Shown piece after piece: positions 2,036 to 61,325 of a stretch of 64,000 nucleotides of DNA (its first letter is position 1; each line of letters begins with the position of its first letter). Made by a program: the position numbers and the translations under genes. This DNA is from a virus: IMG/VR virus record IMGVR_UViG_3300032516_000014, positions 1 to 64,000 of that record; one strand, 5' to 3'. Below the pieces are notes generated by a model, which saw only the letters and a list, made by a program, of their open reading frames with translations, made no database searches and was not told the origin of the DNA.

Positions 2036-2044
2036 GCCCTGTTC

Positions 2045-3360: not shown

Positions 3361-3362
3361 CC

Positions 3363-4724: not shown

Positions 4725-4761
4725 CTCACCGGTCCTAGTGCCTCTGAACCGACTCCACCCT

Positions 4762-4907: not shown

Positions 4908-4910
4908 CTT

Positions 4911-6797
4911 ATGAATGCCGTTACCATAGACTTCGAGACGTTCTACCACAAGAAGGACTACTCTGTTGCGAAGATGGGCAACTGGGCGTATGTTCATGAT
5001 TCGCGTTTCGATCCGTATCTTGTCTCCGTGTGCGACGGGGAACAAACCTGGGTCGGACAGCCGAAAGATTTGAACTGGACAGCCCTCCAGGGGCGAACCC
5101 TCGTGGCTCACAACGCGGCCTTCGAGCAGCATATTGTTGCCCGGCTGGAGGAATTGAAGTGGATTCCCGAGCTGAACCTGGCGGGGTTTCATTGCTCTGC
5201 GAACATGACCAGCTACCTGTGCGACCGGCGCGCTCTCGATCATGCGTGCGACTTTTTGCTGCATGAGAAGGTGTCAAAGGGCATGCGCGAGTGGATGAAC
5301 GGACGCACTTGGGCCGACGCAGTGAAAGAAGGCAAGGACAAAGAGCTGACCGAGTATGCCCGCAAGGACGCCGAGCTGGCGTGGAGATTGTGGGACCAGT
5401 TCTCTCCGCAGTGGCCTGAGCAAGAATGTTTGTTGTCAGATCTGACGGTCGAGGGGGAGATCTACGGTATCAAGATCGACCAGAACTTGCTGACAGAATA
5501 CCTCGACATAGCCCAAAGGGCATTGATCGTGAATGAATCCCGGCTGCCTTGGATGGCCGCCGGCAAGAAGCCGACAAGTCCGATTGCGATTGCGGAGGAG
5601 TGCCGCAAGCATGGGATTCCTTGTCCGCCGGTGAAGGTCGATGATGAAGAAGGCTTCCAGATCTGGGAAGACAAGTGGTCCCCGCAATTCTCCTGGGTGC
5701 AATCCGTCGCCTCGTGGCGCCAGGTGAACAAGTTGATCGCGACGCTGCGTATGTTCGAGCAACGTTGCCGGCCAGATGGCACGGTGCCTGTGCCTCTCAA
5801 GTATTACGGGGCGCACACTGGACGCTGGGCCGGCACCTCGGGGCTGAACTTTCTCAACTTCCGCAAGGAGCCGATCTACTTGGACAAGGAGTCCATGATT
5901 ATCGAGAGGCACGAAGAGCTGAAGGAGATCCGGCGGAGTGTCGAAGAGTCGGGGCAGCTTCCCGAAGGTGTGTCAAGCGCACTCGACATCAGGAAAATCC
6001 TGGTGCCGCGCGACGGTTACAAGTTCATCCTGGCGGACCTGTCTCAGATTGAGCCTCGTGTGCTGGCCTGGTTCTGCCAGGACTGGGAGTTCTTGGACAA
6101 GCTGGCGCATGGCATGAGCCCGTATGAAGCGCATGCCCGCTCGACGATGGGCTGGAAGGGCGGCAAGCTGAAGGACGAGGACCCGAAGCTCTACAATCTG
6201 GCGAAGATCCGCGTGCTGCAACTCGGGTATCAGAGCGGCTGGCGCAAGCTGCAAGCGACCGCTTGGACCAAGTTGAACATTGAACTCGCTGACTCGGAAG
6301 CGCAGCAAATCGTGATCGACTTCCGGGCGCAGAGTCCTCGGATTACCAAGTGCTGGGAGTTGTTGGGCCGGGCCTTCAAGATGGCCACGCTGCAACACGA
6401 GGAGTTCTTTGACCTGGAACTGCCGTCGGGGCGGGAGCTGCACTACGGCAAGCCGGTCCGCAGCGCCCGAGTGCGCATGAACGAGGACACCGGGCAACTG
6501 GAAAAGGTGTCCGTGATTACTGCGGACGTGGGAGGCCGGCGCTTTTCGTTCTACGGCGGCATGCTTACGGAGAACATCGTGCAAGCTACGGCTCGGGACG
6601 TGTTTTGCGAGCAGTTGCTATCGCTCCGCCGGGCGGGGCACCGCGCGTTGTTCCACGTTTACGACGATGTCACGCTGGAAGTGAAGTCCGAAGTGACGAC
6701 GGCTGAGGTAGAGAAGTTGATGAGCGTTACTCCTTCCTGGATGCCCCGGCTGCCGGTGGCAGCGGAGGCGCAAGAAGCCACGCATTACAAGAAATGA
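4911..6797 (+). CDS. Family A DNA polymerase with 3'-5' exonuclease domain
   Basis: A 628-residue replicative polymerase. Proofreading motifs are IDFETFY (Asp7/Glu9), HNAAFEQ and YARKDAE. Polymerase motif A is ADLSQIEPR with catalytic Asp376. Motif B is AKIRVLQLGYQSG with Lys432, the spaced form seen in phage PolA proteins of DUF2800-containing modules. Motif C is HVYDDV with Asp585, where the usual His-Asp-Glu is Tyr-Asp-Asp. There is no 5' nuclease domain. The start is an ATG directly after a T9 tract without ribosome site. The stop overlaps the primase-helicase ATG, so the two replication proteins are translated together. Confidence 0.93.
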   Translation: MNAVTIDFETFYHKKDYSVAKMGNWAYVHDSRFDPYLVSVCDGEQTWVGQPKDLNWTALQGRTLVAHNAAFEQHIVARLEELKWIPELNLAGFHCSANMTSYLCDRRALDHACDFLLHEKVSKGMREWMNGRTWADAVKEGKDKELTEYARKDAELAWRLWDQFSPQWPEQECLLSDLTVEGEIYGIKIDQNLLTEYLDIAQRALIVNESRLPWMAAGKKPTSPIAIAEECRKHGIPCPPVKVDDEEGFQIWEDKWSPQFSWVQSVASWRQVNKLIATLRMFEQRCRPDGTVPVPLKYYGAHTGRWAGTSGLNFLNFRKEPIYLDKESMIIERHEELKEIRRSVEESGQLPEGVSSALDIRKILVPRDGYKFILADLSQIEPRVLAWFCQDWEFLDKLAHGMSPYEAHARSTMGWKGGKLKDEDPKLYNLAKIRVLQLGYQSGWRKLQATAWTKLNIELADSEAQQIVIDFRAQSPRITKCWELLGRAFKMATLQHEEFFDLELPSGRELHYGKPVRSARVRMNEDTGQLEKVSVITADVGGRRFSFYGGMLTENIVQATARDVFCEQLLSLRRAGHRALFHVYDDVTLEVKSEVTTAEVEKLMSVTPSWMPRLPVAAEAQEATHYKK

Positions 6798-14748: not shown

Positions 14749-17700
14749 TCATTTCGGGCGAATCTCTGCCTTCTCGGCGGATTGCGTAGCGGGTTTCACG
14801 GCGCCGGCTAAACGCTGACGCCGTTCCCACTCGTCCACCAGCACGCGATGCCAGTTTTTATCAACCCGGCGAAACCGATCATCGGTCACTAGACGCTGTA
14901 ACTCGGCGTCGGGCATCCCCTGCGACATCATCTTCTCATTCTGGCTCGCGCGCTTTGGCATAAAATTCGCCGAGTTAATATCGCCCAGGTCGAGGCCCAA
15001 GTCAAGGGGCTGTTCTGTCGGCGCGGCCCGGATCTCCAGCCGGCCAGTTTCCTCGTTTCGTTGCAGCTTTTTCAACGGCTCCTCGAAAGACGCCAGCTCT
15101 TCGCCGGCCCCCCGAGTCCACCCGCGCTCGCCCCACAGCTTCTTTTCCTGAAACCACATCAGGGCTTGCAGGTCGTCCGGCTGCATGTGCAACTCTTTTG
15201 CCGCCTTTGCAAATGCTTCCTGCGCGAACAAGAAGGCGGGATCGGTAATGCCGCCCTCGCTGCGGGGCAGCAATCGCCACGGAGATTTCGTCAGCCCGTC
15301 CCAGCCCAGGCGTTTCATCGTCCGGGAAGCCCACACGTCGATGGTCGCGCCGTGATCGGTGCCCGCCAGGTTTTTCGCAAACTGCTGCGTCTTGAGCCCC
15401 TGCACTTCCTCGGCCCAGGTGCCGGACAGCACCCGCAAAACCTGATCCGAGTTCTGGCCAAATTGTTTTTCGTTCTCGCGAACTAAGGAGAGCTCGCGGC
15501 TTTCGATCCACCACTCCTTCAGCGCAGCGTCGGAGGGCACGATGGTTGAGTTGTTCTCGCGCTGCCATTGCCGCAACAACCCGCCCGTTTCCAGCTTGGC
15601 ATAAGCCTTCTTGTATGAAGCGATCGCGTCGTCGAACTTGCCTTCCTTCCAGAGGTTATACGCTTCGAGAGCATACTTGAAGTTTTGGGCCACGTCAGTT
15701 CTCGCGCTGGTGGCCGCGAGCAACTGGGCGAAAGAAGTAACCTCGGCGTCAGTCTTGAAGTGCTCTTTGATCAGCCGGACGGTTTCTTGATACCAGGACT
15801 TGCCGGCGAGCACGTCTGGGTCAGCAATTGCGCGCGCTTCTTCGGCAATCTTCTTGGCGAATGCAGTCGTCTGGGCATCTTGACGCGCTGACTCTCCGCG
15901 GATTCCTTTGGCAGCTTGCCGGGACAAAGGCGAATCGTCGAACGTGTATTTCACCATGTTCACGAGGGGCTTGCCTTTGGCGTTGATAATGTATTCGCCT
16001 TCGGGGGTTCGCTTGAACAGGACGGGCACTGACTCCGGGTGGAATTCAACACGTTCCTGCGTTACGCGCCGAGCGTAATCCCGAGCAAAGGCTTGCGGGT
16101 CCGTCTCCGTTACCTCGGCCCCGAACTCTGCTTGCTCCGCGTCGCCTTTCTTCGGCTTGGGCATGAACGCGGCTCGTTGCGCGCCAGTGTCAGAAATGAG
16201 GGGGAGGTGATCCAACTTGTCGATGCCCTCATACTCCACCAGGTTTGCGGCGCCTCCATCGACAATCTTCATTTTGCCGTTGAGGATGTTGACCCGCATG
16301 TGGTCGATGTCGTCGAGGTTCTCGCGCACCAACTGGAAAATCTTGTCCTTCGCATCCGTGGTCCAGGCGTTCTCGGAAGCCTCGATCGCTAGCGTTCCGG
16401 TGCGAGGTTCGTAGCGAACGCGAATGAAGCCTTCTCGAATGGCCTTCTCTCGTTCAGCAATGTCGGGCACGTTTGCAAAGTCCGTGCCGTATTCCGCGTT
16501 GAGCTTAGCGCTATTACGGGCCAGCCAGTCCTCGTGCATGCTGCCCTGGATGGAGCGGAACTTTCCGTCGGGGTCGATCCACCCGGAGGTTTCCAGCTTC
16601 TCAGGTTCCTCCCGCCGGCCGCGCTTAGCCATCATTGCTGCTTCGGGCGGTTTGGGCAGCTCGGCTGGGATCGCGTTCTCTCCCTTCAACAACGCTTGCA
16701 CCGCCTTCGCAATCTGCGCGGGAGAGGTCAGAACGGTTTTCCCAGTGCCGCCCACCGGGATTGAGTGTCCGTAAGGGTCCTTCTCCGTGGGCACCGTGTC
16801 ATAAATCGCCTGCTGCTGGTTGAACTTCCCAAAAGCGATCGTGTTGTCCCGATGCTTCTGATCAGGCAGCGCATTCACGTCGATGCTTGTCTGCGTCGGG
16901 TCGTCCATCTTGAACACCCCCATAGCCGTCCCCGGAATTGCAAGCACGTCCTCGTATCGGTCGGCTACTTTTTGCACCGCCGCCGGAGTGAGTGCCTTCG
17001 TCAGCACGTTCTCGCTGGCCACGGTGACGATGTCCACTTTCTGATCTTTTCGATCCCACACCTTGCCGGCGCCGGTGAACGTCTGCCCAGAGCTGGTGCC
17101 CTCGCGAACCTTTGCAAGTTCGTCGGCGACTTCCTTCGATTTCTCAAACGCTTGCGGCATGAAGGCGCCGTGAAACTGCGCAACCCTTGACGAAGTGCGA
17201 CTGGGCAAGTGGCCGGCGCGATAAAACTCTTTGATGTCGTTGATAATTACCGTTGGATTCGTGACGGCCGGATAAACCCGGCTATCACGTGCGTAACCGT
17301 TTTGATCAACTAAATCAACAGCCACCTCCCCCCACTCATTTTTCAAACTCGGATCAGCGAAGAAACTTTCCAGCTTGCGATATTGTGCCTCAGAAGGTTC
17401 TTTGTTTGAGGAGATCTCCGCACCGGGTAACTCCGGCATGATTCGGATCGCGCCGGAATTGACAAACGCTGTCAGCCCGGATGTTTCACCGGAGTAACCC
17501 AATTTCCCAGCACCGGCTTTCTTCGATGCCGCCGCTATGAACGGGGTAAGCATGTTTTCTCCCACCGCTTCAGCAATCGAAGAGTGGTCGATCGTGCGTT
17601 TGTAATCTCCAGGCGGGGCATCGGGACCTTTGCCGGTGAAATCAAGCTGCGTGCCGTCGGGTAGTAGATAGCCGGTCTCCTTCCACTTCTCCGTGTCTCC

Positions 17701-20700
17701 GTATTCCCGCCAGGCGGCGCGATGCAAGCGTCGAGCGTATGTAGTCAGTAACTTGTCTTCGGACTCCTTGCGCTTGGCCATGAACGCACCTTCGGCCTTG
17801 CCGGTGGGTTCATCAACAATTTTCCATCCGAGACGATTAAGAGCGCTCTCGAAAACATCAGTCCCGACAGGAAGTGTTCCGCGGGGAACGCCGGGTAGAG
17901 GCTCCCACACAGTCACAACTCTTGTCAGAGCTCCAGTAGCAGGAGAATACCGGGGCTTGCCAACCGATGCCCGCACAAGTTGGTTGTCGGGACCCTGCAA
18001 CAAAACGCTCACGTCTCCGGGTGTCGATTTCGGTATGTTCTTAAAAGACCAGCCGGATTTGTTTCTCCAAGCAGAGCGTTCCATTACTTCTGCTCCCGTT
18101 TCTTTTTGCCCGGGGATGTCCTCGGGTAAAATAGGCAGATCAGCCATTCCAGCGACTCGACTTTTCGTCATGAACGCACCTTCGGCCTTGCCGGGCGTCT
18201 TGTCAAGTTGCTGCGAGGCCCAGTCGTAGATCTCGCGCGCGAAATTCTCGTGGATCGCCGGGTCGGTGTGGAACGACTTCGCGAGCACGTTCTCATCCAC
18301 GTCGGCGGCAGAGGTCGTCTTCAACTCCTTCGACAACTCGCTGCCCTCATACACGGCCAGGTTGTAGATGTTCGCGTGGCTGATCACGTCTGAATTCTTC
18401 CGGAGGAAGTCCATCGTGTGCGCATAGGTCGCCGCGGTCTCCCCCGGCAACCCGATCACGATGTTCGGAATGAACGCGATGCCCAGCCGGCGCATCTGCT
18501 CGGTGGCGGCGTCGATCAACTTCTCGTTCGCCGGTTTGCGCTGACCTTTCAGCACGCTGTCGTTGTAGGACTCGACGCCCAGCTCGATGAACTTGATGCC
18601 GCTCTTGCGCAGGAATTCGTCGCTGAAGGACTTCATTTGCGCCGCCGTCGTCTGAATCACGAAGCCCCCGAAGTCGGGATTCGCAGCCTTCATCTTGGCA
18701 TAGAGCTCGGGCAGTCGCAAGTAACTGTCGTGATGGCCGAAGGTTTTGTCGTTGAGATAAGCCAGCGGCGCATTCAGATCGCCGAAGGCGTCCACTTGCT
18801 GAGTCACTACCTCGGGCGGCGTCCCAACGACCTTTTTCGTGGTCGTGCAGAACTTGCACGCGTGCCGGCACCCCTGCGAGAGATCCAGCCGAGGAACAAC
18901 GGAAGAACCCCGATACAAGCGGTAGTCAAAGCCGCGTTTGTATTCCAGCCCAAGAGATCGAACGTATTCATCGATGGATTCATACCGGGTTGCGCGAGGG
19001 TTGCGCGAGGTGATCTCGCTGGTGTCCGTGTAGCCGCCCAGGACCGTGTGGCCTGGATTTGCGTCCGCGAGCTCCGCGACCTTCGACTTGTTCACGTCGA
19101 GCACCGAGAAGGCCACGTCCTGGTAGCCCGCTGTGGCGAGAAAGCTCTTGGCTTCCGCCATGTCGCGCACCACGTAGAGATCCGCCGCCTCGCCAAGCGC
19201 GTGTGTCAACACTGCGTGCCACTGCGGGACTTCCCAGAAGTCGGGCAGTCGAGCATACCCCTTGCGCTGCGCATACAGCTTGTCGTAATATGCGGATGCA
19301 GCAACATCCAAGGGATTTGGAGGTTTGTTCACGTCGGTTGGGGCATACATCATGTCCTTCGTGAACTGCATCAGCAACACCCGGTTGGAGTTGTCCGACG
19401 CTCCCGACTGGCGAACCCATAGGTTGCCCTTGCCCCGCTCGACCGCGTGCCCATACGTATCCGCAGGCTCCGTAATCTCGCTGCCGCGCGCCTTGGGCAT
19501 GAACGCCGCCGGGGTGAGGCCGGCGGATTCCCCCGGAAGAGCGGGCCGGTCGGGGTTTGTCTCAGAGCTTCCGACCATGCCATCAGGAATGTCGATCGGT
19601 CGCTGCGGAGTCGGCCCGAGTGGTTCAGTTGTCGCAGGGGCATCTTCTACCGTCCAACCCTTCTTGTTTAGCGAGGGCTCGTATGTGGTGCTACGCGCGG
19701 TGAAAGCACCGGGGAAAGATTCCTTGGGTGTGATCTGTCGCACCATACCCAGGCCCAGCACGGAGGCATCCTGGTCCCCGTCGTGCGTGGCTGCGACTCG
19801 TTCCCCGTTCGGCCCCACCAGGGTTACGTCACGCTTCGGCATGAAGCCGGCGCGAGCCAGGTCCGTCGAAGGCATGCGCAGCAAAGACTCAGGCCGCGGC
19901 GTGAGACCGCGGATCTGCTCCAGACTGAGCTCTTGCGTGACTTCGTGCAACTGCCCTTTCGCGTCGAAGCCGGCGTCCACCAGCTCCGCCCGCAGGGGGT
20001 TGGTCTCCATGACCGGCACGTCTTCCGGGACGATGATGCCCTTCTTGGCAAGAGCTTCCTTCTTGAAGACCGGCGCGCCTTTCGCGGGGGTAAGCGGGCG
20101 CCCATGCGCCTCTGCAAGTATCTGTGCCGCCATTCCCGCGGGCATCGGCATACCCGAAGGTCCGGTTCGCTGGGCAACTCGGCCAGTTTTCGGCGGAGCG
20201 AGGCCCATCGAGGCGTTGATGAATTGCGCTTTCCGCGGATCAAGAAGGGTCGGCTTCCAGTTTGGATCTGGCGCCGGGATTACCCCTTGCCAGCCTGCGG
20301 GTGGGTGCATCGCCGTGCCGTCGCCGCCGTAGCCGTGAGCGTGATTGCGCAGGTAAGAGGTTACATCAGCCGCAAAGTCCCTAAATCCAGGCTCCGTGAA
20401 ATGCCCGTCCGACCCTGTTTCATACGGCACAAGACCTGGTGCCTTCTTGCGAGCGGAAAACTCTCCAATCCGTAGCGCATTCGCGAGCAGGATGTCGAGG
20501 TTCATCGACAGCAGGTTTACGTTGTCTCCGCGAACCTTAACGCCATAGAATATCGCTTGATGTCGGAGCGTCCGCAAGAGTTCAACCGGATAGGTCCCGT
20601 CCGCCTTGCGCTGCAATTCGACTTCAAGACGCTCCGCCCTGCGGATGTATCTTGCCACGTTTTCACCAACCGTTTCGGGCCGGGCATAGTCGAGCTCCAC

Positions 20701-23175
20701 TGGAGTAACATCGCCATGTTCCCGTTGCAGCAATTCCCAAACCTGGTCCATCACTGCCTTGGCGTTGTCGTCGTATTTCGGGGAAGCTTGCGTGCGGCGG
20801 CGCGCTTCGGAAAGCCCTTCGATGTCTTTCGCCTGGGCGACGAATTCTTTGGTGCCTACGCCTGGCGGGCGCATGAGCGAAGCCTGCGCGCCTGTCGTTG
20901 CCGCTCGAATCGGCACCGCTCCAGGCACCCCGGGGGCTGGACGAAGAACGGGCTGGATCTCCAAAGCTTTCAACCTCTCCGCCAGCACGGGAGTTTCCAG
21001 AGAACGAAAAACAGGTTCGGCAAGCTGTCGCCCTGTAAAAGAGGGCGTCAAACCGCCGTGGCGGCCGGTGATAAAAGTTTTCGGATCGAGAGTTGGGCGA
21101 ACTATGCCTGCCTTTTCAAATAGCGAGCCCAGAGCTGTAAACGCGGAGTTTAGCACTCCGGGTGGCGCGCCGTTCAAAGACCGCCCACGTAGAATGGCGC
21201 CCAGGGTCTCCGCAGAAGCTTCGTCCAGAATGTTGCCGGTCGCACCTTTGCCCCCGTAAAGCTCTTCAAGCGCGGGGCGGATCGGGTTGACGTGCGTAGC
21301 CAGATCTGCCCGATACTTTTCCCAGGCAGGCCGATCTGTCTCCCGAAGCAGCCAGTCGAGCACGTGCCCGGGCTCATGATAAACTGCGGCGTCCCCACCA
21401 TTCAACAACATGACTTTCCGTGGTCCCCGGCCTTCCGTCGGATCAAGCCGGACGGTGAAGCCACGCTGCCCCCGGGCTTCAGCAATCAGTTGCTCCGGCG
21501 TGAAGTCCGGGTGTTCGCGTTGAACTTCAGCCAACACCCGCGGATCTTGGGCAAACTGGTCCACAGGCAGCAAGTAAAGCTCAGCCTTGCCGCGGAAGTA
21601 TTCCCGCACCCGATTGATCAAACCTGCTGTGGGGGAATCGTTCCTGCGCAACGCTTCAATCGCCTGCGTGTGGGCCTGATCGAGGTTGGGTTCGATGTTG
21701 AAAGCCGGTGAACGCACCGGGTCACGCGCGACTTCCTGATACCGCGCCTGGTAAGCCCTTGCGACGCCTTCGTGCGCAGCAGAAACGGCTTGACGTGTTG
21801 CTCCCCCGAAGCCACCAAAGAAAGCCATCGTGCCGATGAGCTGCCCCGCCTCCATGTCAGTATGCGCCCCCAGGGCAAACGGCGCGCTCGCAAGACCGCC
21901 TTCGATTGCGCCAGCCACCGCCGGGGTTGCAAGTTTTGCGATCGGCAACGCGTTCTCAGCCAGGGCTGCTCCGCCGCGCTTCAAACCCCACTCCGTCCCC
22001 TTTGTCACAGCATGCGCAACTTTGCCGGCGACCCAGCCCCCCGGACCCGCCGTGACTGCCCCGCCGAGCGGAGCTTCTTTTCCGACCCAACCCACCACAG
22101 GAGCCGCCGCTTTTTCTGCGGCCCATCCCGCACCTTTGAAAAGCTTCGCCAGGGAAAATTCTGTTGCGATGCCGATGGTCTTTCCTCCAAGACCGATCAC
22201 CTCGAACAGCTTGCCTCCGCCCATCGGAATGAACGTCATCGGCCCGTTGAAGAGCGACTTGTCTGCGATCGCTTCTGGATCGAGGGTAACACCGGCGGCC
22301 TGCAATCGCTCCGGGGTAACGCCTGCCAAGGAAGATACGACCCCACCTCCCTGCGCAACGTTTGTGTGCCGACGAAAACTTTCTGCGTCGGCGTCGAGGT
22401 CCTCACGCAACCGCAGACGGCGAGCCTCGGGATTCTCCTCCACCTTCGCCCGTTGGCCAGTCACCTCACCGGGAACACCGGGCACCCCCGGCACCGGGGC
22501 CGCTCGATACACCCGGCCCGCCGTCCGGGAAACAAGAGTAGCCAGATCCCGAGCTTGCAGAATTCCTTCGTCGATTGACGCTACGCTTTCGCCCGCAATC
22601 TTCGCCGCTGCCGCCAGCGTTGAATCCCGCACTTCCATGTTGTTTTCCAACATGTCTTTCGCGAAGGCCCAGGCTAGTTTCGCTTCACCCGCGGCGGCCC
22701 CCGCGACCGCGCGCACCCCACTCTTGCCCGTTTCCCACAAGCCTCGGCCGATCGCTTTTGCGGTGCGCCCCACTTCCCACGGCCGCGCGTCTTGTGCATC
22801 GTAAATCTCGTAAAGCTTCTCGCGCAAATCAGGCGGCAAGTCTTTTCCGTATTGGCCCAGCATCGCCACTGGTGAAAACGCGTCATCCGCCGCTAGTTCT
22901 TGCGGCGTGCGCTCCATCAGTTTCCCGATGTCTGGATTTTGAGGAGCCTGGGAAAACTCCGCAGTGCTTGGTCCTATTGAAGGGATATGCACCGCCCTTG
23001 GGGCAGCCTGAAACTCGTCAAGGGTAGGCGCAGCCGGTGTCACCGGAGCGGCGGCTTGAAACTCGGCGAGATCCGGCACTGGCGCAGCGGCGTTGAATTC
23101 TTCCACCGAAGGCGGGAGAAAAATTCCCGAAGCCGTAGCCTTTTGAATCGGCGACTCTTTGAGTTCGACAGGCAT
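14749..23175 (-). CDS. Giant polyvalent/ejection protein (2808 aa) with protease-like and radical-SAM domains
   Basis: It follows two internal-virion-type genes, the place where podoviruses encode proteins ejected into the host. Residues 20-75 carry four short repeats of type (L/V)xEFxxAP. Residues 320-480 are Gly/Ala-rich and hydrophobic, suited to membrane passage. An HExxH zincin motif (His600-Glu601-Pro-Gly-His604), with a later Asp651-Glu652, resembles the metallopeptidase domains of polyvalent phage proteins. From about 1110 the chain is divided by eight (A/G)xFMxK/Q motifs with Met at 1112, 1226, 1669, 1799, 2006, 2182, 2338 and 2739. The 1226-1669 segment contains a radical-SAM domain with Cys1436-x3-Cys1440-x2-Cys1443, followed by ELGVES and IGLPGET strands and preceded by a possible B12-type Rossmann region. 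Segments 1112-1226 and 1669-1799 are related to each other. The others are unassigned. Function in the infected cell is inference; domains are visible. Confidence 0.85.
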   Translation of the reverse strand: MPVELKESPIQKATASGIFLPPSVEEFNAAAPVPDLAEFQAAAPVTPAAPTLDEFQAAPRAVHIPSIGPSTAEFSQAPQNPDIGKLMERTPQELAADDAFSPVAMLGQYGKDLPPDLREKLYEIYDAQDARPWEVGRTAKAIGRGLWETGKSGVRAVAGAAAGEAKLAWAFAKDMLENNMEVRDSTLAAAAKIAGESVASIDEGILQARDLATLVSRTAGRVYRAAPVPGVPGVPGEVTGQRAKVEENPEARRLRLREDLDADAESFRRHTNVAQGGGVVSSLAGVTPERLQAAGVTLDPEAIADKSLFNGPMTFIPMGGGKLFEVIGLGGKTIGIATEFSLAKLFKGAGWAAEKAAAPVVGWVGKEAPLGGAVTAGPGGWVAGKVAHAVTKGTEWGLKRGGAALAENALPIAKLATPAVAGAIEGGLASAPFALGAHTDMEAGQLIGTMAFFGGFGGATRQAVSAAHEGVARAYQARYQEVARDPVRSPAFNIEPNLDQAHTQAIEALRRNDSPTAGLINRVREYFRGKAELYLLPVDQFAQDPRVLAEVQREHPDFTPEQLIAEARGQRGFTVRLDPTEGRGPRKVMLLNGGDAAVYHEPGHVLDWLLRETDRPAWEKYRADLATHVNPIRPALEELYGGKGATGNILDEASAETLGAILRGRSLNGAPPGVLNSAFTALGSLFEKAGIVRPTLDPKTFITGRHGGLTPSFTGRQLAEPVFRSLETPVLAERLKALEIQPVLRPAPGVPGAVPIRAATTGAQASLMRPPGVGTKEFVAQAKDIEGLSEARRRTQASPKYDDNAKAVMDQVWELLQREHGDVTPVELDYARPETVGENVARYIRRAERLEVELQRKADGTYPVELLRTLRHQAIFYGVKVRGDNVNLLSMNLDILLANALRIGEFSARKKAPGLVPYETGSDGHFTEPGFRDFAADVTSYLRNHAHGYGGDGTAMHPPAGWQGVIPAPDPNWKPTLLDPRKAQFINASMGLAPPKTGRVAQRTGPSGMPMPAGMAAQILAEAHGRPLTPAKGAPVFKKEALAKKGIIVPEDVPVMETNPLRAELVDAGFDAKGQLHEVTQELSLEQIRGLTPRPESLLRMPSTDLARAGFMPKRDVTLVGPNGERVAATHDGDQDASVLGLGMVRQITPKESFPGAFTARSTTYEPSLNKKGWTVEDAPATTEPLGPTPQRPIDIPDGMVGSSETNPDRPALPGESAGLTPAAFMPKARGSEITEPADTYGHAVERGKGNLWVRQSGASDNSNRVLLMQFTKDMMYAPTDVNKPPNPLDVAASAYYDKLYAQRKGYARLPDFWEVPQWHAVLTHALGEAADLYVVRDMAEAKSFLATAGYQDVAFSVLDVNKSKVAELADANPGHTVLGGYTDTSEITSRNPRATRYESIDEYVRSLGLEYKRGFDYRLYRGSSVVPRLDLSQGCRHACKFCTTTKKVVGTPPEVVTQQVDAFGDLNAPLAYLNDKTFGHHDSYLRLPELYAKMKAANPDFGGFVIQTTAAQMKSFSDEFLRKSGIKFIELGVESYNDSVLKGQRKPANEKLIDAATEQMRRLGIAFIPNIVIGLPGETAATYAHTMDFLRKNSDVISHANIYNLAVYEGSELSKELKTTSAADVDENVLAKSFHTDPAIHENFAREIYDWASQQLDKTPGKAEGAFMTKSRVAGMADLPILPEDIPGQKETGAEVMERSAWRNKSGWSFKNIPKSTPGDVSVLLQGPDNQLVRASVGKPRYSPATGALTRVVTVWEPLPGVPRGTLPVGTDVFESALNRLGWKIVDEPTGKAEGAFMAKRKESEDKLLTTYARRLHRAAWREYGDTEKWKETGYLLPDGTQLDFTGKGPDAPPGDYKRTIDHSSIAEAVGENMLTPFIAAASKKAGAGKLGYSGETSGLTAFVNSGAIRIMPELPGAEISSNKEPSEAQYRKLESFFADPSLKNEWGEVAVDLVDQNGYARDSRVYPAVTNPTVIINDIKEFYRAGHLPSRTSSRVAQFHGAFMPQAFEKSKEVADELAKVREGTSSGQTFTGAGKVWDRKDQKVDIVTVASENVLTKALTPAAVQKVADRYEDVLAIPGTAMGVFKMDDPTQTSIDVNALPDQKHRDNTIAFGKFNQQQAIYDTVPTEKDPYGHSIPVGGTGKTVLTSPAQIAKAVQALLKGENAIPAELPKPPEAAMMAKRGRREEPEKLETSGWIDPDGKFRSIQGSMHEDWLARNSAKLNAEYGTDFANVPDIAEREKAIREGFIRVRYEPRTGTLAIEASENAWTTDAKDKIFQLVRENLDDIDHMRVNILNGKMKIVDGGAANLVEYEGIDKLDHLPLISDTGAQRAAFMPKPKKGDAEQAEFGAEVTETDPQAFARDYARRVTQERVEFHPESVPVLFKRTPEGEYIINAKGKPLVNMVKYTFDDSPLSRQAAKGIRGESARQDAQTTAFAKKIAEEARAIADPDVLAGKSWYQETVRLIKEHFKTDAEVTSFAQLLAATSARTDVAQNFKYALEAYNLWKEGKFDDAIASYKKAYAKLETGGLLRQWQRENNSTIVPSDAALKEWWIESRELSLVRENEKQFGQNSDQVLRVLSGTWAEEVQGLKTQQFAKNLAGTDHGATIDVWASRTMKRLGWDGLTKSPWRLLPRSEGGITDPAFLFAQEAFAKAAKELHMQPDDLQALMWFQEKKLWGERGWTRGAGEELASFEEPLKKLQRNEETGRLEIRAAPTEQPLDLGLDLGDINSANFMPKRASQNEKMMSQGMPDAELQRLVTDDRFRRVDKNWHRVLVDEWERRQRLAGAVKPATQSAEKAEIRPK

Positions 23176-49561: not shown

Positions 49562-49927
49562 TTAACTGGTCGGATTATCCGGGTGAGTAACAGCAACATC
49601 GGCTTCATCAGGCGATTGAGGCAACGTCGGCACTGGAGGAGGAGAAGGCCATTTCGAGTCGTCGTCGAGCGAAGCATACTGGATCGAGGTCTCCGGGGCC
49701 TTCGACTCTTCGACGGTGAGCGAAACCAGGTTCTCCAGGAAAAGCTCGTATCCCGCCACCACACCCGCGTTGGTGAGCCGGGAAGCGATCGAGCCCTGGC
49801 GCGTGAGGTCGGGCCGCATCGCGTGCGTATGCAACAGGGCTTCCTGAAGGACGGAGTTCTCAAGCAGCTCGCGTAACGCGATCGCTTTGTCGGAAGTCCA
49901 GAGCCCTAGTTTCTTGAAGACGATCAT
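49562..49927 (-). CDS. Hypothetical protein between portal and scaffold, 121 aa
   Basis: ATGA overlap with the portal gene fixes the start. The first 80 residues are helical (SDKAIALRELLENSVLQEALLH) and the last 40 are Pro/Asp-rich and disordered. Small helical proteins at this position can be head-completion or chaperone factors, but no family is recognised. Confidence 0.6.
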   Translation of the reverse strand: MIVFKKLGLWTSDKAIALRELLENSVLQEALLHTHAMRPDLTRQGSIASRLTNAGVVAGYELFLENLVSLTVEESKAPETSIQYASLDDDSKWPSPPPVPTLPQSPDEADVAVTHPDNPTS

Positions 49928-52065
49928 ACCTGCGCGGGAGCCAGAGGAACAGGTGGAACAGGCTGTCCCGGATTCATAGGTGAAGCAGGCTCCGGCGGCG
50001 CAAACGCTTCCGGTGTGCCAACCCCGGGCTCCTGGCCGGCTTGCTCCTGGGCTGCCATTGCTTTGATCTTCTGCACCGCCGCTTTCGCTTGCTGCACAGC
50101 CTGAATGTCCTCAGCAAACACGTTTTTGTCCGCGCCCTGAGACAAAGCAAACCCTAGATGCTGCTCCGCATGCGACAACAAAATTTCCAGCAGCGCAACC
50201 GCGTCAGGTTGTGTCATCGCTGCCGACACTGTCGCCGTAATCGCCTGCAACTGCACGTCCAGATGAATGCGATGATTATCCCGAGGAGACACCGGCACTT
50301 CCTGCCCGTGCACCATCAGGAAATTCTCAAGCTGCTGCATGCGCGCTTGCTCTGCCAACTCCGTCGGGTCTTCGTCCGGCAGCAAAATCTGGTCCGCAAA
50401 ATCCCCGCTAATCAAGGCCGAAACCTTCTCGCGTTCCAGTATCTTCTGATTGTAGAGCGGATTCGAGCGGCCCTCCTGGGCGATCACCACAATCTTCTGC
50501 CGCTGCAACTCCGTGAAGTCGGACACCGTGTTGATCGTCGGCTGATTCGCCAACATTTGCAACTCCTCCGGCGACATAACCTTCAACAACCGCTGCTGCA
50601 TCTGCTTCGCCGGCTCGTCATCCACTTGCTCCGAGCAAATCCGTTTCTGCATGATGCTCACCAGATCCGACATCTGGGTGAGAAACCGACCGATGATCGC
50701 GTCGGCCTTTTCGTCATCCCGGGCCGCGTAGAAGTCCACAGCAGCCTTCGTCACGCGCTCTCCCTGAAACACTTTAGGCGTGGTGCTGCCAGCAATCTGA
50801 TCGAGCAACCCCGTCAACCACGAGTCCATCGCGATGTAGGGGTCCACCGCGCCGTCAATCCTCTGCTGCGACACCTCGAAATTGTTCGACACAAGAATCG
50901 CATTGCCAAACACGTTCATGCGGAACTTGCGGAAATGCTTCTCGTCGCCGCGCAACACAAGCTTGCCCGCAAGCTGCAACCGATCGACGATCTCGTTGCG
51001 CGCACGGTCAAGGACGTTAGCCATCGCATAGACTTCGCGACCAATCCCCTTGCTGCCATGCAGGGTCCCATTGGCCTGCTGGAAACTGAAAAACGCCGCA
51101 ACGTCCGCCATCGACTCAAACCGGTCCGCCCGCCCAAACACCGGGTAGAACGCATTCGTTGCGTAAACCGAGTGACTCACCTTGCCCGTAACTTCCACCG
51201 CGAGCACATGCCAAAGCTCGATCACCGAAGCCCCCTGCATAAAACTTCCGAACAGCGACAGTTGCCGTTGCAAGTCCTCATATACGCGCGCCCAGTCCGC
51301 ATACTTGCTACGGATAGTCTGCGGAGAGGCCTCGTTGACCGCCTTCACGGCGTTCGGGATGTTCCAGCCTGCGTCATTCGCCGACTCGTGGTCCCTAATC
51401 CGGGCAAACAAATCATGAGGCAAAATCGTCTCTTTCAGCACCACAAGCTGCGCATACTCCGGGTTTTGCTTGGTCCCGATCGGGACGAAAAACTCATCTT
51501 GCCGAAACGCTTTCGGCCACCAGTCATACTCATCGAGACACGCGACTCCAGCAAACCCAAACAACGCGTTCTCCTGCGCAATCTCGGACACGAGGTTCTT
51601 CCACCCCTTGCGCCCCCGGATCAACTTCGTGATCTCCTCGCGAAAACGACGCGTTTTCTCCGTCGAGCCCTGGACATAGTCGGGCAACTGCGAACTGGTG
51701 AGAAACTTCACTTTGTCAAGCGCGTCGGCGAACCGCGGCGCCACCTTGTCGATCAACGTCGGCAGTGGCTTGGTCGAGAAATTCGCCTTCCACGAGAGGC
51801 CCTCCTGTTCCAGCAGTTCATCCTTCCACGGCTTCTCCGCGTCATACTTGCTCATGATCCGAGCCGCGATGATGTTACGCTGCCGGTTATCCTGCACGAG
51901 CTTGACGATGATCTGCGCCGCGACCGCTTGCGAGGGAACAGAGCGCTGCCGCGGCTGCATCGTCGCAGGATCGACCGCGGGACTCCTGATCATGCCCGCC
52001 TGGGCCGCATACTCGGAAATGTAGCTCTGCTCCAGACCTGTCGAATACGTGCTATCAGTTGCCAT
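49924..52065 (-). CDS. Portal protein (head-tail connector)
   Basis: A 713-residue protein, the size of podovirus connectors. The N-terminal region is helical. Central mixed part includes ENALFGFAGVACLDEYDWWPK and ILPHDLFARIRDHES. A long helical crown follows (EEPAKQMQQRLLKVMSPEELQMLA, AVQQAKAAVQKIKAMAAQEQAG), with a Pro-rich tail. Together with terminase upstream and scaffold downstream this fits the dodecameric portal through which DNA is packaged. No diagnostic short motif exists for this family, so the call relies on size, composition and order. Confidence 0.8.
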   Translation of the reverse strand: MATDSTYSTGLEQSYISEYAAQAGMIRSPAVDPATMQPRQRSVPSQAVAAQIIVKLVQDNRQRNIIAARIMSKYDAEKPWKDELLEQEGLSWKANFSTKPLPTLIDKVAPRFADALDKVKFLTSSQLPDYVQGSTEKTRRFREEITKLIRGRKGWKNLVSEIAQENALFGFAGVACLDEYDWWPKAFRQDEFFVPIGTKQNPEYAQLVVLKETILPHDLFARIRDHESANDAGWNIPNAVKAVNEASPQTIRSKYADWARVYEDLQRQLSLFGSFMQGASVIELWHVLAVEVTGKVSHSVYATNAFYPVFGRADRFESMADVAAFFSFQQANGTLHGSKGIGREVYAMANVLDRARNEIVDRLQLAGKLVLRGDEKHFRKFRMNVFGNAILVSNNFEVSQQRIDGAVDPYIAMDSWLTGLLDQIAGSTTPKVFQGERVTKAAVDFYAARDDEKADAIIGRFLTQMSDLVSIMQKRICSEQVDDEPAKQMQQRLLKVMSPEELQMLANQPTINTVSDFTELQRQKIVVIAQEGRSNPLYNQKILEREKVSALISGDFADQILLPDEDPTELAEQARMQQLENFLMVHGQEVPVSPRDNHRIHLDVQLQAITATVSAAMTQPDAVALLEILLSHAEQHLGFALSQGADKNVFAEDIQAVQQAKAAVQKIKAMAAQEQAGQEPGVGTPEAFAPPEPASPMNPGQPVPPVPLAPAQV

Positions 52066-53260: not shown

Positions 53261-55150
53261 TCAAGCAATCCCCCAGTCCTCGCGCTCCAAACGGTTCGTG
53301 CAGTCGCATACCACGACCGGCTCTCCGTCGTCCAAACCCGGACCCGATTCCGTCGCCGGAAGCAGTTCGCCCTTCATGCTCAGACTCACCCCCGCCGCCA
53401 TTCGGATGCCGTGAACCAACAGCGTCACCGCGTCTGCTTCATTGGGGGAGGAGGCCATTTCCCGACTGCGGTAATCGTCCTTTTCCTCCACTTTGGCCAG
53501 CTTCCCCGGAGCGTATCTCCGCTTGCCAAGCTGCCGATACAACTCCGCCGTATCAATAGCCGGCGCCAACTTCACGAAATCAAACTCGATCCACTTTTTC
53601 AACGCAAACCAAAGCTCCGAGACAAGCTTCTGGTAAACCTCCTTCGGAGTCTGCTCGTCCTCCTCGAAAATCTTCTTCTCCGTCGCCGCCTCCGAGTAGT
53701 TGACGGCCATGATCTCTGGGCTCCAAATCTCCCGCAGCAAATCAACGACCCCCGCCCCGTGCCCCGTCTTGTCCAGCATGATGTGCCCCGGCTGCACGCC
53801 AAGCTGCAAAGAAAATTCCCGAACCTTCCGGGTCATGGCAACCGTCTCACCCTTCGGCAACTCGAAAATCGCCTCCACCTGCAACCCGTAGCGGGGCCTG
53901 GATCTACCCAAAGAATCCTGGAACATGGTCGTCGTGCCCTTGGGATGCTGAATTGAGGGAGGCAACTCGACGCCGACCGCGATACCGAACAGCCCGTGCG
54001 CATAGACCGCTGCATCGCCCCCGGTCAGCGCCAGATCCACCCCCGCGTAACCCGAAGGCCGCTCCGAGAAGATCAGCTTCCCCTTGAACCGATCAAGTAT
54101 CCCCTGCGGAATGACCGCGAAGTTCACGCCTTCGGGCGGATAACACCCCCGAGCCATCGTGAAATAGCCCGGCGTTCCGATCCCGCCCGCATTCGAGATC
54201 ACGTTTTGCAGCCCCTCAGCAGTCTGCAAGCCGGGGTAAATCACCTTTTTCTGCACCACGTTCGGGCATCGGTAGGCATCGAGCCGAACCACGTCCCAGC
54301 CGCGTTTACTCCGCCACTGCTCCGACTTCTCGATGTCGAAGCCAAGCTGCCAGCCTTGCTGAGGCTCCGCACGCTGGCCCGTGTTGCCGTTCATGTCGCG
54401 CGGGTTATAGGCACCGATGATCTTGAAGTTTTCCACCCCGTTCACGTTCGACACGGAGTTGTCGATGTCTTTCCACACCGCTAACGGCACCTCTTCGAGT
54501 TCATCCAGGAAGATAAACAGCCGAGACAGCGTCCCAAAAATAGGATGCTTGTGCTTCCGCGGTCGGTTGTGGAATCCCTGCAACCTGCCGGCGGCTTTGG
54601 TCTTACCGATCGGAATCACCACCCCCGAGATCGAGGAAAACCGCTGCCTGGTGTTGAGCCCGATGAAGAGCTGCTGGATCGTGCCGGGCAACGGCAAAGA
54701 CGATTCCCGATGCAAATCCACCAGATGAGAAAACAAGTTGTCTTCAAGATGCTGCTCGGAGGGACCGATCAGCTTCACCGAGGTATTCTCCGGGTCCCGC
54801 ACCCACTCCAACAACAGCCGGCCCCCGATTGAATACGACTTCCCCAGGGAAGCCGCGCCCATGATCAGCATCAGCGCCGACCGGTCGAACGTGCGCCAAA
54901 GCAACTTCGTGCCCGGGGCGTCCGTGGTGAACTTCGCCTCATCCCACAACAAGCGCGCAGCTTGATCAGTCCGCTCGTGGTCCAGGCACCACTGCAAGAG
55001 CGAGTAAAGCAACGGCATCGCCTCTTCGGCAACCCGCGGAAGACGATCCAGCTTAGAAAACGCCGCGATATGCTGGCCAGCTTTGACATAGCTCTTCGTG
55101 CGCAACTCGTGCGCAACTTCCGCAATCAATGTATCCCGGGCGTCACTCAT
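53261..55150 (-). CDS. terL: Terminase large subunit
   Basis: A 629-residue packaging motor. ATPase Walker A is MGAASLGKSYS (Lys104) and Walker B is LFIFLDELEEV (Asp216, Glu217). The C-terminal RNase H-like nuclease has GYAGVDLALTGGDAA (Asp372), then MLDKTGHG near 470, and SSPNEADAV as the last acidic site near 590. It cuts and translocates DNA into the procapsid through the portal encoded downstream. The start at 55150 overlaps the preceding glycosyltransferase by eight bases; an earlier in-frame start would overlap more. No obvious small terminase gene adjoins it. Confidence 0.92.
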   Translation of the reverse strand: MSDARDTLIAEVAHELRTKSYVKAGQHIAAFSKLDRLPRVAEEAMPLLYSLLQWCLDHERTDQAARLLWDEAKFTTDAPGTKLLWRTFDRSALMLIMGAASLGKSYSIGGRLLLEWVRDPENTSVKLIGPSEQHLEDNLFSHLVDLHRESSLPLPGTIQQLFIGLNTRQRFSSISGVVIPIGKTKAAGRLQGFHNRPRKHKHPIFGTLSRLFIFLDELEEVPLAVWKDIDNSVSNVNGVENFKIIGAYNPRDMNGNTGQRAEPQQGWQLGFDIEKSEQWRSKRGWDVVRLDAYRCPNVVQKKVIYPGLQTAEGLQNVISNAGGIGTPGYFTMARGCYPPEGVNFAVIPQGILDRFKGKLIFSERPSGYAGVDLALTGGDAAVYAHGLFGIAVGVELPPSIQHPKGTTTMFQDSLGRSRPRYGLQVEAIFELPKGETVAMTRKVREFSLQLGVQPGHIMLDKTGHGAGVVDLLREIWSPEIMAVNYSEAATEKKIFEEDEQTPKEVYQKLVSELWFALKKWIEFDFVKLAPAIDTAELYRQLGKRRYAPGKLAKVEEKDDYRSREMASSPNEADAVTLLVHGIRMAAGVSLSMKGELLPATESGPGLDDGEPVVVCDCTNRLEREDWGIA

Positions 55151-55985
55151 ACAACGGAGCCGCGTCACGCACATTAACGTCATTCCCGCAAACCCTCAAC
55201 TGCCGGGCGACTTCCGCAAAACCGCTATGCAAATCTGCGACCATCACCCGAGCCCGCCTCAAAATTTCCATGTCGAGAAAACAGTTCAAGTACATCTCCC
55301 GCAACTTCAAATCGCCCCGCTGCAACTGCGGAGCCACTGTCACGTCCGCTTTCTGCCACTCATCGGGAGGCCGATAGTGCGGCGCTTGCGACACCTCAAA
55401 ATCGAGTTTAGACGCCAACTCGACAAACTGCCCAAACGCGTCCGACGTATCCGAACAAATCACTACCTTGTTTAGTCCGAAGTTACCCCGAAGCGTTTTA
55501 CACGCCGCAAGGTAGCAAGACAGGTCGATCGCATTCGATTCTGCAATCGGTCCCGCCACTTTGTCCCCGCGCCGAATGTGCACCCCGATGTAAGACTTTC
55601 GCTCCAACTTCTGTAAAAATGCATCCGCAGCCAGAAAGTCGCACACGTGTTTCGCCGGGCGATAAAGCTGCTGCATCAGGGCAGAATGGTAGCCAAACGC
55701 GGTGTGGTGTCCCTTCGGAAACCACTCACGCTGCTCCGCTCGATCCTGCTGCGCGAGCCCCAGGTTACTTAGCTCGACAATTTCCGCGCCAGTCAGCGCG
55801 TCAAACGAAACAGTGGACATACTTTCAAACCAATCCTGCACCCTCCCCGTATGAAAAATGGGATAATTGTTTTCCTCGTAGAAAAACTCCCACCCCCGCA
55901 CTTCCGCGAAAGTGCGCCCCCACCGCGCGTGCAGCAAGTGCGCCCCAAAAGGCCACCACAAATCTGACATTTTGAGAATCGTCAT
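55143..55985 (-). CDS. Fucosyltransferase-like protein (FUT8/NodZ type)
   Basis: A 280-residue protein. YIGVHIRRGDKVAGPIAES near 133-150, with Arg138, Arg139 and Asp141, matches the GDP-fucose-binding block (HxRRxDK) of alpha-1,6-fucosyltransferases. KVVICSDTSDAF and RARVMVADLHSGFAEVARQL are the later donor-site and Ser-containing blocks. The start is fixed by ATGA overlap; a far longer open frame upstream is an artefact of a neighbouring gene. It is coupled to two GT32-like genes. Fucosyltransferases of this type are rare in phages. Acceptor unknown. Confidence 0.75.
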   Translation of the reverse strand: MTILKMSDLWWPFGAHLLHARWGRTFAEVRGWEFFYEENNYPIFHTGRVQDWFESMSTVSFDALTGAEIVELSNLGLAQQDRAEQREWFPKGHHTAFGYHSALMQQLYRPAKHVCDFLAADAFLQKLERKSYIGVHIRRGDKVAGPIAESNAIDLSCYLAACKTLRGNFGLNKVVICSDTSDAFGQFVELASKLDFEVSQAPHYRPPDEWQKADVTVAPQLQRGDLKLREMYLNCFLDMEILRRARVMVADLHSGFAEVARQLRVCGNDVNVRDAAPLYE

Positions 55986-56650
55986 ACCGCTCGCAAACTC
56001 TGAAGCGTTCCGACCCAGTTTCGTTCGTTTCCCGACACCAGTCCCGCGGTCCCGCGCGGATAGTGTACTACCGGCGAAGTTTGCCAGTCTGTCCGTTGAG
56101 CACGCCCACCCCAAACGTCTGCACCACGCACCGGAAATTCTACAAGCACCCCCGGCACAAGCGTCGCTTCCTTGCAACCATGCCAACAATACTGCGTCAA
56201 ACAGTGCATGTCCTGGGATTCTTCGGCCCGGGGCCACGTTTGCACAAAATCGACGATCACGTTTGCAAGCTTCGCCGACCACAGCCGATCCGCAAAGATC
56301 ATCGGAGAAGTCGTGCCGTTGAAATACTTCAACCCGGTCCAGTCTGCTACGGGCGACTGCAATCCGTAATTCATCACGCTGTAATTCGTCAGCAGTCCGC
56401 CGCCGCACGCGGCCAGAGCCAGCCACCGCGCAAAGCACCGCTTATCGTAATCGATCCCACACAGCGACGGAAATGAACGCCGATCCACGGCCTGCACCAA
56501 CTCCTGGAATCGAGCGTGCGCCCGCGCTTCCGCAAGAGAAAGCACCTGCGTCTGCCAGCCGCGTTTTCGCCAACTATTCGCCCAAAGCTCCGTCAAAGGC
56601 CAAAAATTCGGATGCCCCGGCAACGGGTCGTAAAACGTAAACACTTTCAT
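55982..56650 (-). CDS. GT32-like glycosyltransferase, paralogue 2, 222 aa
   Basis: Start by ATGA overlap (MKVFTFYD). Shares with the upstream gene the plan xVFTxxxxLPGxx, ELWxxSWxKRGWxxxVL, RWLAxxxxGGG and a following NYSL-type segment. Here the usual DxD is replaced by TNYSVMNYG, so the metal-binding acidic pair appears lost, which may mean an altered or inactive enzyme. C-terminal SPVVHYPRGTAG resembles the final strand of capsule-type transferases. Confidence 0.62.
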   Translation of the reverse strand: MKVFTFYDPLPGHPNFWPLTELWANSWRKRGWQTQVLSLAEARAHARFQELVQAVDRRSFPSLCGIDYDKRCFARWLALAACGGGLLTNYSVMNYGLQSPVADWTGLKYFNGTTSPMIFADRLWSAKLANVIVDFVQTWPRAEESQDMHCLTQYCWHGCKEATLVPGVLVEFPVRGADVWGGRAQRTDWQTSPVVHYPRGTAGLVSGNERNWVGTLQSLRAV

Positions 56651-57279
56651 AATTCTCGAAGGCAACGAATGCTCGGGGCTTTGTGCGGCCAGTCTTGCGG
56701 GAAGTCCCGCCACAAAGTTGCATTTGCATAATGCACGCATGGGCACTCAAACCAACGAGGCCAAGAATATACCCGGCAACATTGGCACCCCGAAGGAGGC
56801 ACGTATTTCGCAACCACAAACATATCGCTAATATGGGGTCGCCCTGCCCTCGACACCACGCAGTCCCCCTCCGGAAGCGTCAAAATCCGAGTGACGAGAC
56901 TCCGCGCGCCCTCCGCCGACGCTGACACAAATCCACTTGATCCCGAGGCGTCGTGAGAAGCGCAAACTTCGACCACGAAATCTTCAGGCCGCAAAGAGTA
57001 GTTGATCACGTCGGCGTCCACAATAATCCCGCCGCCGACCTGCTCGAAGGCCAGCCATCGGAGCCAGCACACGTCTTCATAGTCTCGTGTGTTCACCGTG
57101 GGGAAACTTGCGATTCGATCTCGAAAAACAGAGAAGCGCGGATTGTCTTGTGCGTGCTCGCGACCGAGCACTTCAGGACGCCATCCGCGCTTCGACCAAG
57201 ACTCTTTCCAGAGTTCGATCAGTGCTTTTTGCTCGTCTTCATTTCCAGGCAAGTTTTCCGAATACGTGAATACGGTCAC
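56647..57279 (-). CDS. GT32-like glycosyltransferase, paralogue 1, 210 aa
   Basis: GTG start at 57279. WLRWLAFEQVGGGIIVDADVI near 75-95 is the classical LxxYGGxYxDxDV block of GT32/capsular sugar transferases with its DxD. HISDMFVVAKYV and PCVHYANATLW are later conserved-like strands. Paralogous to the following gene, which lacks the DxD. Together with the fucosyltransferase-like gene they form a small glycan cassette upstream of the terminase. Confidence 0.72.
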   Translation of the reverse strand: MTVFTYSENLPGNEDEQKALIELWKESWSKRGWRPEVLGREHAQDNPRFSVFRDRIASFPTVNTRDYEDVCWLRWLAFEQVGGGIIVDADVINYSLRPEDFVVEVCASHDASGSSGFVSASAEGARSLVTRILTLPEGDCVVSRAGRPHISDMFVVAKYVPPSGCQCCRVYSWPRWFECPCVHYANATLWRDFPQDWPHKAPSIRCLREL

Positions 57280-57292
57280 GTATTCATATTGC

Positions 57293-57619
57293 CTAACAGG
57301 CCGGTCCGGTCAAGTCACTCGACTTGATCGGGTGCTCCTCCGGCCGGTCAATAACGTCGTCGCTGATCCGCTGGTGCGCGCCTGGAGGCACCTGGCACCA
57401 AGGCCCGCCAGTGCGCGGCCAGTTCGGAGTCGGAGGATACGTCGAAGGAAAGATCTCCGACGGCGGCGGAAAGACAGGCGGCGACACTATCGGCGACGGC
57501 CGCATCGCATTCGCACGCTCCGTCGCTGTCGCAATCCGCTCCAACGCCGCCGCAATCCGCTCCAAATACTCCCGCTTCCACTCTTTCAATGCGTGTCCAT
57601 TACATCCCGCGTTCGACAT
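57293..57619 (-). CDS. Coiled-coil/proline-rich hypothetical protein, 108 aa
   Basis: The ATG at 57619 has a GAGAGG ribosome site; longer open frames upstream overlap the histone-like gene. The N-terminal helix LKEWKREYLERIAAALERI and IATATERANA is a likely short coiled coil. The rest is Pro-rich (IVSPPVFPPPSEIFPS). No family recognised. Confidence 0.55.
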   Translation of the reverse strand: MSNAGCNGHALKEWKREYLERIAAALERIATATERANAMRPSPIVSPPVFPPPSEIFPSTYPPTPNWPRTGGPWCQVPPGAHQRISDDVIDRPEEHPIKSSDLTGPAC

Positions 57620-57621
57620 AA

Positions 57622-57942
57622 CTATCCTCTCAGTTTGCCGGCAGCGTAGTTCAACACCAGCGCGTCCAGCGTTTTCTTCCCGCCATTGTGCACCGCGCAC
57701 GACTTGACCACGAGGTCGAAGACGTGGCGATCCAAAGCATCGAGAAACTCCCGCCCCGCCCGATGCCCGTGTTCCCTGGCCTTCCGGCGGACTTCGCTGA
57801 CCCGAATGTAATGCCGCGCCAGCAGCGGAGGCCCCGAAAGGACTCCCTCACCAGCAAACACTTCCACCAGCGTCTTACCCAGACACGGCGCCGGCAATTC
57901 GGCCGGCGTCCGACCCCCGCATGCTCCGTCTCCAATGCTCAT
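57622..57942 (-). CDS. Possible histone-fold DNA-binding protein, 106 aa
   Basis: Residues about 45-104 read VSEVRRKAREHGHRAGREFL, then ALDRHVFDLVVKSCAVHNGG and KKTLDALVL. This follows the pattern of single bacterial/archaeal histone folds (V..I/V....G..VS.dF..ALd..V..ll..A.....NG+KTL...DV), including the strongly conserved (G)KKTL/GRKTL turn before the last helix. The first 40 residues are extra and disordered. If correct, it could compact or organise phage DNA or act in packaging. Judgement by eye; a profile search is needed. ATGA overlap sets the start. Confidence 0.5.
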   Translation of the reverse strand: MSIGDGACGGRTPAELPAPCLGKTLVEVFAGEGVLSGPPLLARHYIRVSEVRRKAREHGHRAGREFLDALDRHVFDLVVKSCAVHNGGKKTLDALVLNYAAGKLRG

Positions 57943-58349
57943 AGCAACCCTTTCTCGTGATACCGCTTCCCTTGCTCAATTAACGCAACCGCCTGCGGGT
58001 GCGTCCGCCTGGCCGCCAACAGCGCGACCGGCACCCGGGCCGCCGCTTTGCTGTCGAAACAGCGGTCGCAGAATATCATCGACTGGAGTATCTGGCCCCC
58101 GGAAACACCGAAGATGTCAACCCCCGTGGCACTGCGACAATCGAGAATGCCCCGGCACATCGGGCAAAAGCAAGTCATGCCGACGAAACCTTTGAACGCC
58201 GACGCCCGGATTGCAGCATCGGGGAACTTGTCCGCATCGACCAGCGAGATCCCCGAGACTTGCAGCACCGGCGGCGATGCGCACGAAGGCCGATGCGACT
58301 TGCGGACGTTCCGCCGCACATCATCCAGCAACAGTTCGCTCTGAATCAT
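57939..58349 (-). CDS. Zinc-binding protein, 136 aa
   Basis: ATG at 58349 with a GGAGG ribosome site six bases upstream. It contains TCFCPMCRGILDC and later IFCDRCFDSKAA, two Cys pairs forming a likely zinc finger (about residues 60-100). A helical C-terminus (HPQAVALIEQGKRYHEKG) follows. May bind nucleic acid or protein. Coupled to the histone-like gene. Confidence 0.62.
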   Translation of the reverse strand: MIQSELLLDDVRRNVRKSHRPSCASPPVLQVSGISLVDADKFPDAAIRASAFKGFVGMTCFCPMCRGILDCRSATGVDIFGVSGGQILQSMIFCDRCFDSKAAARVPVALLAARRTHPQAVALIEQGKRYHEKGLL

Positions 58350-58884: not shown

Positions 58885-58931
58885 ACGATTACAGGTGCGC
58901 TTATAGTTTGAAAAAGCGCACCTGTAATCGT
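58885..58931. promoter_or_regulatory. 18-bp perfect inverted repeat in divergent gap
   Basis: Arms 58885-58902 (ACGATTACAGGTGCGCTT) and 58914-58931, loop of 11 bases. It is centred in the 139-base gap between the late operon (-) and the right-hand genes (+), 46 bases from each start codon. Likely operator or a hairpin near two divergent promoters. Clear -35/-10 boxes were not identified. Confidence 0.6.
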
Positions 58932-61220: not shown

Positions 61221-61325
61221 ACTCCGCCGTTTCAGTGAACTCACGCCACGATATGAAACAAAAACGTTATGAAACTCAACGTGCCGCAAACTAATACAGA
61301 GAAGTAGCGCCGCTGTAATCGTATC

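Follow-up and report, generated by a model that had tools for sequence, protein, structure and literature searches.

The window analysed here, that is, the whole stretch of 64,000 nucleotides, belongs to a 76,395-base record of an uncultured virus, in which a gene predicted to encode a small histone is present as a single copy. This gene, its leader and the genes around it are as follows:

57939..58349, minus strand: upstream gene of 136 aa with two CxxC pairs, zinc-ribbon-like
57948..57956, minus strand: GAGAAAGGG, a purine-rich, Shine-Dalgarno-like stretch read from the sequence, five bases upstream of the histone ATG
57622..57942, minus strand: predicted phage histone gene, 106 aa, ATG start, TAG stop
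57293..57619, minus strand: next gene, 108 aa, function unknown, starting 2 bases past the histone stop
53261..55183, minus strand: terminase large subunit (phrog_2, E=3e-8), about 2.4 kb downstream of the histone gene
49924-52065: large gene after the terminase, portal-like by position and size only

The start codon of the histone gene and the stop codon of the upstream gene share an ATGA (57942-57939), which, together with the immediate start of the next gene, places the histone gene in a tightly packed gene run; this run extends from near 58838 through to the terminase. The codon-position G+C of the ORF (0.70/0.48/0.72) is similar to that of its neighbours, and the 106-aa ORF at 57622-57942 is a real gene. 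The searches gave no family match for the 136-aa upstream gene or for the portal-like gene, and of the genes that separate the histone gene from the terminase (55143-57279), one is weakly fucosyltransferase-like (Glyco_transf_11, E=0.009). The sequence-only reading had described a late operon with the gene upstream of the terminase, and this is fair for the window, given the terminase on the same strand. Among its relatives, the window copy is atypical in both its position on the terminase strand and its N-terminal extension.

Elsewhere in the record, the left end carries replication-type genes on the plus strand (a helicase, DUF2800 and a family A DNA polymerase). A perfect 18-bp inverted repeat (ACGATTACAGGTGCGCTT, with an 11-nt spacer) lies at 58885-58931, where the leftward histone gene run and the rightward plus-strand genes diverge, and a degenerate copy with 3 mismatches is found at 61305-61322; the repeat may act as an operator or form a hairpin. 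The late region also includes a 2,808-aa ORF (14749-23175, minus strand) with a radical SAM domain and DUF7178, which is unusual in a phage structural region.

Within the histone gene, the following parts of the protein were delimited, the helices being taken from an AlphaFold2 model:

57817..57942, minus strand: N-terminal extension of residues 1-42, with a slightly acidic net charge of -2 and predicted disorder
57625..57816, minus strand: predicted histone-fold domain, residues 43-106, net charge +7, pI 10.4
57772..57801, minus strand: predicted helix alpha1, residues 48-57
57760..57762, minus strand: Arg61 (Arg21 in family numbering), in loop L1, by alignment the sprocket arginine R19 of HMfB
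57691..57753, minus strand: predicted helix alpha2, residues 64-84
57664..57690, minus strand: loop L2 signature HNGGKKTLD, residues 85-93, from the family alignment
57643..57678, minus strand: predicted helix alpha3, residues 89-100

Searches of Pfam, PHROGs, NCBIfam and the PDB with the single protein returned nothing usable. In IMG/VR, a first scan found relatives at 26 loci and a scan by alignment raised this to 50, so that the unnamed family now comprises 50 IMG/VR contigs and one Ignavibacteriaceae metagenome-assembled genome (MAG), with 39 distinct domains. The relatives are 61-72 aa long, i.e. they consist of the domain alone and start without the N-terminal extension, the exception being one fused copy (L068). 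They are basic throughout (pI 9.6-11), occur exactly once in each of the 31 records searched, and share the consensus YIKxSxVKKxxKxHGKRxSKxFLxALDRYVExK...EHNGGKKTLDxxVAxYxLGN. A family profile made without the window sequence matched the C-terminal 64 residues of the window protein with 79.5 bits (E=9e-24 among 1,195 window ORFs), compared with 8.9 bits for the best of 5,000 shuffled versions of this protein. No relatives were found in the cultured phage and plasmid collections at the sensitivity used. The fold search of BFVD, on the other hand, gave two strong matches, A0A6J5MS37 and A0A6J5QYV5, both unnamed and from uncultured Caudovirales phages, indicating that family members are already in UniProt, unannotated. 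Five of the relatives (L002, L011, L014, L017 and L024) have pyrimidine-rich leaders (e.g. TTCTTTCACATCCCGCAT before the ATG) with no Shine-Dalgarno stretch, unlike the window copy, and may thus come from hosts with weak Shine-Dalgarno use.

The relation to histones was reached by profiles only; no single family sequence was significant against a known histone. A diverse family profile of 12 rows, searched against 177,635 PDB sequences, retrieved only four sequences at E<=10, and these represent the three solved alpha3-type histones: HTkC (9.9e-6), HBb in two constructs (0.013 and 0.014) and HLp (0.039). The same four sequences stayed on top when the GKKTL region was removed. A profile-profile comparison (hhalign) with HTkC, HBb, HLp and HMfB gave a probability of 91% and an E of 1e-6. 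Matches to TAL effectors were rejected as summed weak 14-residue repeat matches in which no single stretch passed, and they disappeared with the more diverse profile.

The structure models point the same way. AlphaFold2 predicted the 64-aa relative L011 as alpha1-L1-alpha2-L2-alpha3 with a pLDDT of 94 (helices at 8-17, 24-43 and 54-61), and a fold search with this model against 350,542 PDB chains placed HLp, HBb and HTkC in the top seven positions (probability 0.89-0.99, TM 0.58-0.79). The model of the window protein also has three helices, with its N-terminal 41 residues at low confidence, and its top six matches were HBb and HLp (probability 0.90-0.97). The Foldseek E-values were weak in absolute terms (0.2-1.2 for L011), which is common with helical chains of 64 residues. 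At the monomer level, the AlphaFold2 models thus show the three-helix histone layout, with alpha1 short, alpha2 long, alpha3 short and two loops between them; the predicted alpha3 comprises 8 residues in L011 (54-61) and 12 in the window copy. The alpha2 region is short, the spacing from the L1 Arg to the L2 Thr being 30 residues in the family versus 35 in HMfB, which fits alpha3 histones. Taken together, sequence profile, fold search and residue conservation bear out the earlier proposal of a histone fold in the C-terminal ~60 residues, and we take this identification, with the last 64 residues as the histone fold, to be correct and our principal finding; the GKKTL turn named in that proposal is present at residues 88-92.

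The residues were compared with those of HMfB, whose sequence was verified against the PDB before alignment. In HMfB, R10, R19 and T54 serve to anchor the protein in the minor groove or to keep this anchor in place (PMC6136690, PMC10627809). Their equivalents in the phage family are position 12, which is Lys or Arg in 39/39 domains, Arg21 (the sprocket) and Thr51, the latter two likewise conserved in all 39; by analogy with HMfB, these positions would contact DNA. Thr51 belongs to an L2 loop in which His45, Asn46 and Gly48 (the second Gly) are also invariant (39/39). The RD clamp (R52-D59 of HMfB) is absent, position 49 being Lys in 38/39 domains and position 56 being Val, Leu or Ile in all of them. 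The tetramer residues of the face-to-face type are not kept either: position 43 (R48) is variable and position 47 (N52) is Gly in 37/39 domains or Ala. A C-terminal tetramerisation helix is also missing, as the chains stop at most about 12 residues beyond alpha3.

The gene contexts of the relatives differ from that of the window copy. At 14 of the 35 non-redundant loci, the histone gene lies within about 7.5 kb of recombination/replication genes (exonuclease VIII, endonuclease VII, an O-like initiator, a DnaC-like loader or the ERF annealing protein), in 11 of these cases on the same strand; at one locus (L021), it lies between endonuclease VII and exonuclease VIII. Several of these loci have putative terminase genes 4-8 kb off on the opposite strand (weakly assigned, Terminase_6N, E=0.001). 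In L068 (7461-8210), the histone domain forms the C-terminal end of a 250-aa frame, fused in frame to 183 residues that match an HNH endonuclease (phrog_374, E=1e-54); an internal ATG could allow separate production of the domain as well. A gene for HU or IHF was found in 0/30 records, a count that carries no phage base rate beside it and comes from records that may be fragments. The Ignavibacteriaceae copy (in L071, region 1715-6205) overlaps a zinc-ribbon gene in an ATGA; an AAA_24 ATPase gene lies upstream of it and the gene of a Fic protein downstream, amid host-type genes. This copy is probably a prophage remnant. A comparison of the zinc-ribbon-like genes that precede the window copy and the Ignavibacteriaceae copy gave no support for a link.

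We consider it likely that the family represents a minimal single-domain histone made by the phage, related to the alpha3 type, which would act as a dimeric, non-specific double-stranded DNA binder, i.e. a phage nucleoid protein; that it dimerises, binds DNA and plays this role is inferred here. By homology, the chain would pair into a handshake dimer, and this dimer would bind double-stranded DNA without sequence specificity via its L1-L2 loops. Arg21 would enter the minor groove, held by Thr51, with Lys49 and Lys50 alongside, and binding would also involve the basic face of alpha1 (Lys/Arg12 and Lys16). The most likely task of such a nucleoid protein would be to bend or coat phage DNA that has just been replicated or is undergoing recombination, much like HU on host DNA. 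The placement near recombination/replication genes, the HNH fusion in L068 and the absence of HU/IHF genes from the records counted support the nucleoid-protein reading, whereas the position of the window copy among late genes rather than replication genes counts against it, as do the missing RD-clamp pair, the weak Foldseek E-values and the failure of single sequences to reach significance against known histones.

The same position raises the question of whether the protein is a virion or packaging histone, which would condense phage DNA late for packaging or be carried in the capsid. The window gene does share a same-strand gene run with the terminase, but several genes, one of them weakly glycosyltransferase-like, separate the two, and in relatives with both, the histone gene faces away from the putative terminase genes and is transcribed with the recombination/replication genes. 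Packaging as the main reading on the ground of lying upstream of the terminase was therefore set aside on the contexts of the relatives, and we regard it as unlikely. A host-takeover factor, which would coat host DNA and thereby silence transcription or displace host nucleoid proteins, is likewise a doubtful explanation. The protein is small, basic and apparently a non-specific DNA binder, a common profile of phage host-takeover proteins; however, nothing in the data separates host from phage DNA as the target, and the repeated placement near replication/recombination genes argues for action on phage DNA. Host silencing and packaging, both suggested by the sequence-only reading, are possible roles, less favoured than one in phage DNA metabolism; the contexts of the relatives speak for recombination and replication more than for packaging.

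It is rather improbable that the histone fold serves here as a protein-protein interaction domain without DNA binding, as in TAFs or DUF1931 proteins. The loss of the RD clamp and the unusual invariant His-Asn-x-Gly of L2 would suit such a domain, but every DNA-contact position is either unchanged or basic throughout the 39 domains, in contrast to DUF1931 proteins, which are described as lacking DNA-contact residues (PMC11390915). That the protein is an unrelated three-helix one, its likeness to histones being convergence in a short helical chain, is very hard to credit: the single-sequence searches were empty and the Foldseek E-values exceeded 0.1, but sequence profile and fold both ranked alpha3 histones top, among 177,635 sequences and 350,542 chains, respectively.

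As far as we found, histones in ordinary tailed phages are known only as one minor category of a bioinformatic survey, without experiments (PMC11390915). The present family, found on about 50 contigs, is among the smallest possible histones (~64 aa), keeps the DNA-contact pair that is lost in bacterial histones such as HBb, and often adjoins recombination genes. These features suggest that a histone helps some ordinary tailed phages to handle DNA, and they make this use testable with the purified 64-aa protein.

Among known histones, the closest are the face-to-face alpha3 histones HTkC of Thermococcus kodakarensis (PDB 9F2C) and HLp of Leptospira perolatii (9QT0), which have the same three-helix layout with a short alpha2. 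HTkC is the best profile match of the family (E=1e-5) and also has an Arg in L1, while HLp is its best fold match (TM 0.70-0.79). In contrast to these two, the phage family lacks the RxTxxxxD clamp, varies at the R48 position and, by alignment, has Gly at the N52 position. In alpha3 histones, alpha2 is 4-5 residues shorter than in nucleosomal histones and alpha3 is truncated to 3-4 residues (PMC11390915), whereas the alpha3 predicted for L011 of the phage family may be longer, with 8 residues. HBb (Bd0055) of Bdellovibrio bacteriovorus is likewise a single-domain protein of ~65 aa with a short alpha2 (fold match TM 0.67-0.77); it keeps the RKTxxxD motif, which is absent from the phage family, but is missing the sprocket arginine (PMC10627809) that all 39 phage domains have. 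Compared with the archaeal nucleosomal HMfB, the equivalents of R10, R19, K53 and T54 are present by alignment, while the alpha2 region is five residues shorter and the R52-D59 clamp is absent.

The "phage histones" reported by Schwab et al. 2024 (PMC11390915; e.g. A0A2E7QIQ9) likewise come from uncultured tailed phages. By their published description, RxTxxxD is missing and Lys and Arg residues are conserved, as in the present family. The same description gives them a helical tetramerisation domain at the C-terminus, which our family does not have, and it is on this ground that the two were set apart. A 139-aa protein in BFVD, A0A516LIY4, which matched by fold with a high probability and a weak E, may be of the same kind as these "phage histones". 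Overall, the phage family is a variant near the alpha3 histones by sequence and fold, without the clamp, the tetramer residues or the C-terminal domain. Somewhat short of an even chance, we tentatively propose that it forms a phage-specific minimal-histone lineage, separate from the published "phage histones", which kept the archaeal sprocket Arg-Thr pair, has the near-invariant HNGGKKTLD loop in place of the RD clamp, and serves recombination/replication in many uncultured tailed phages.
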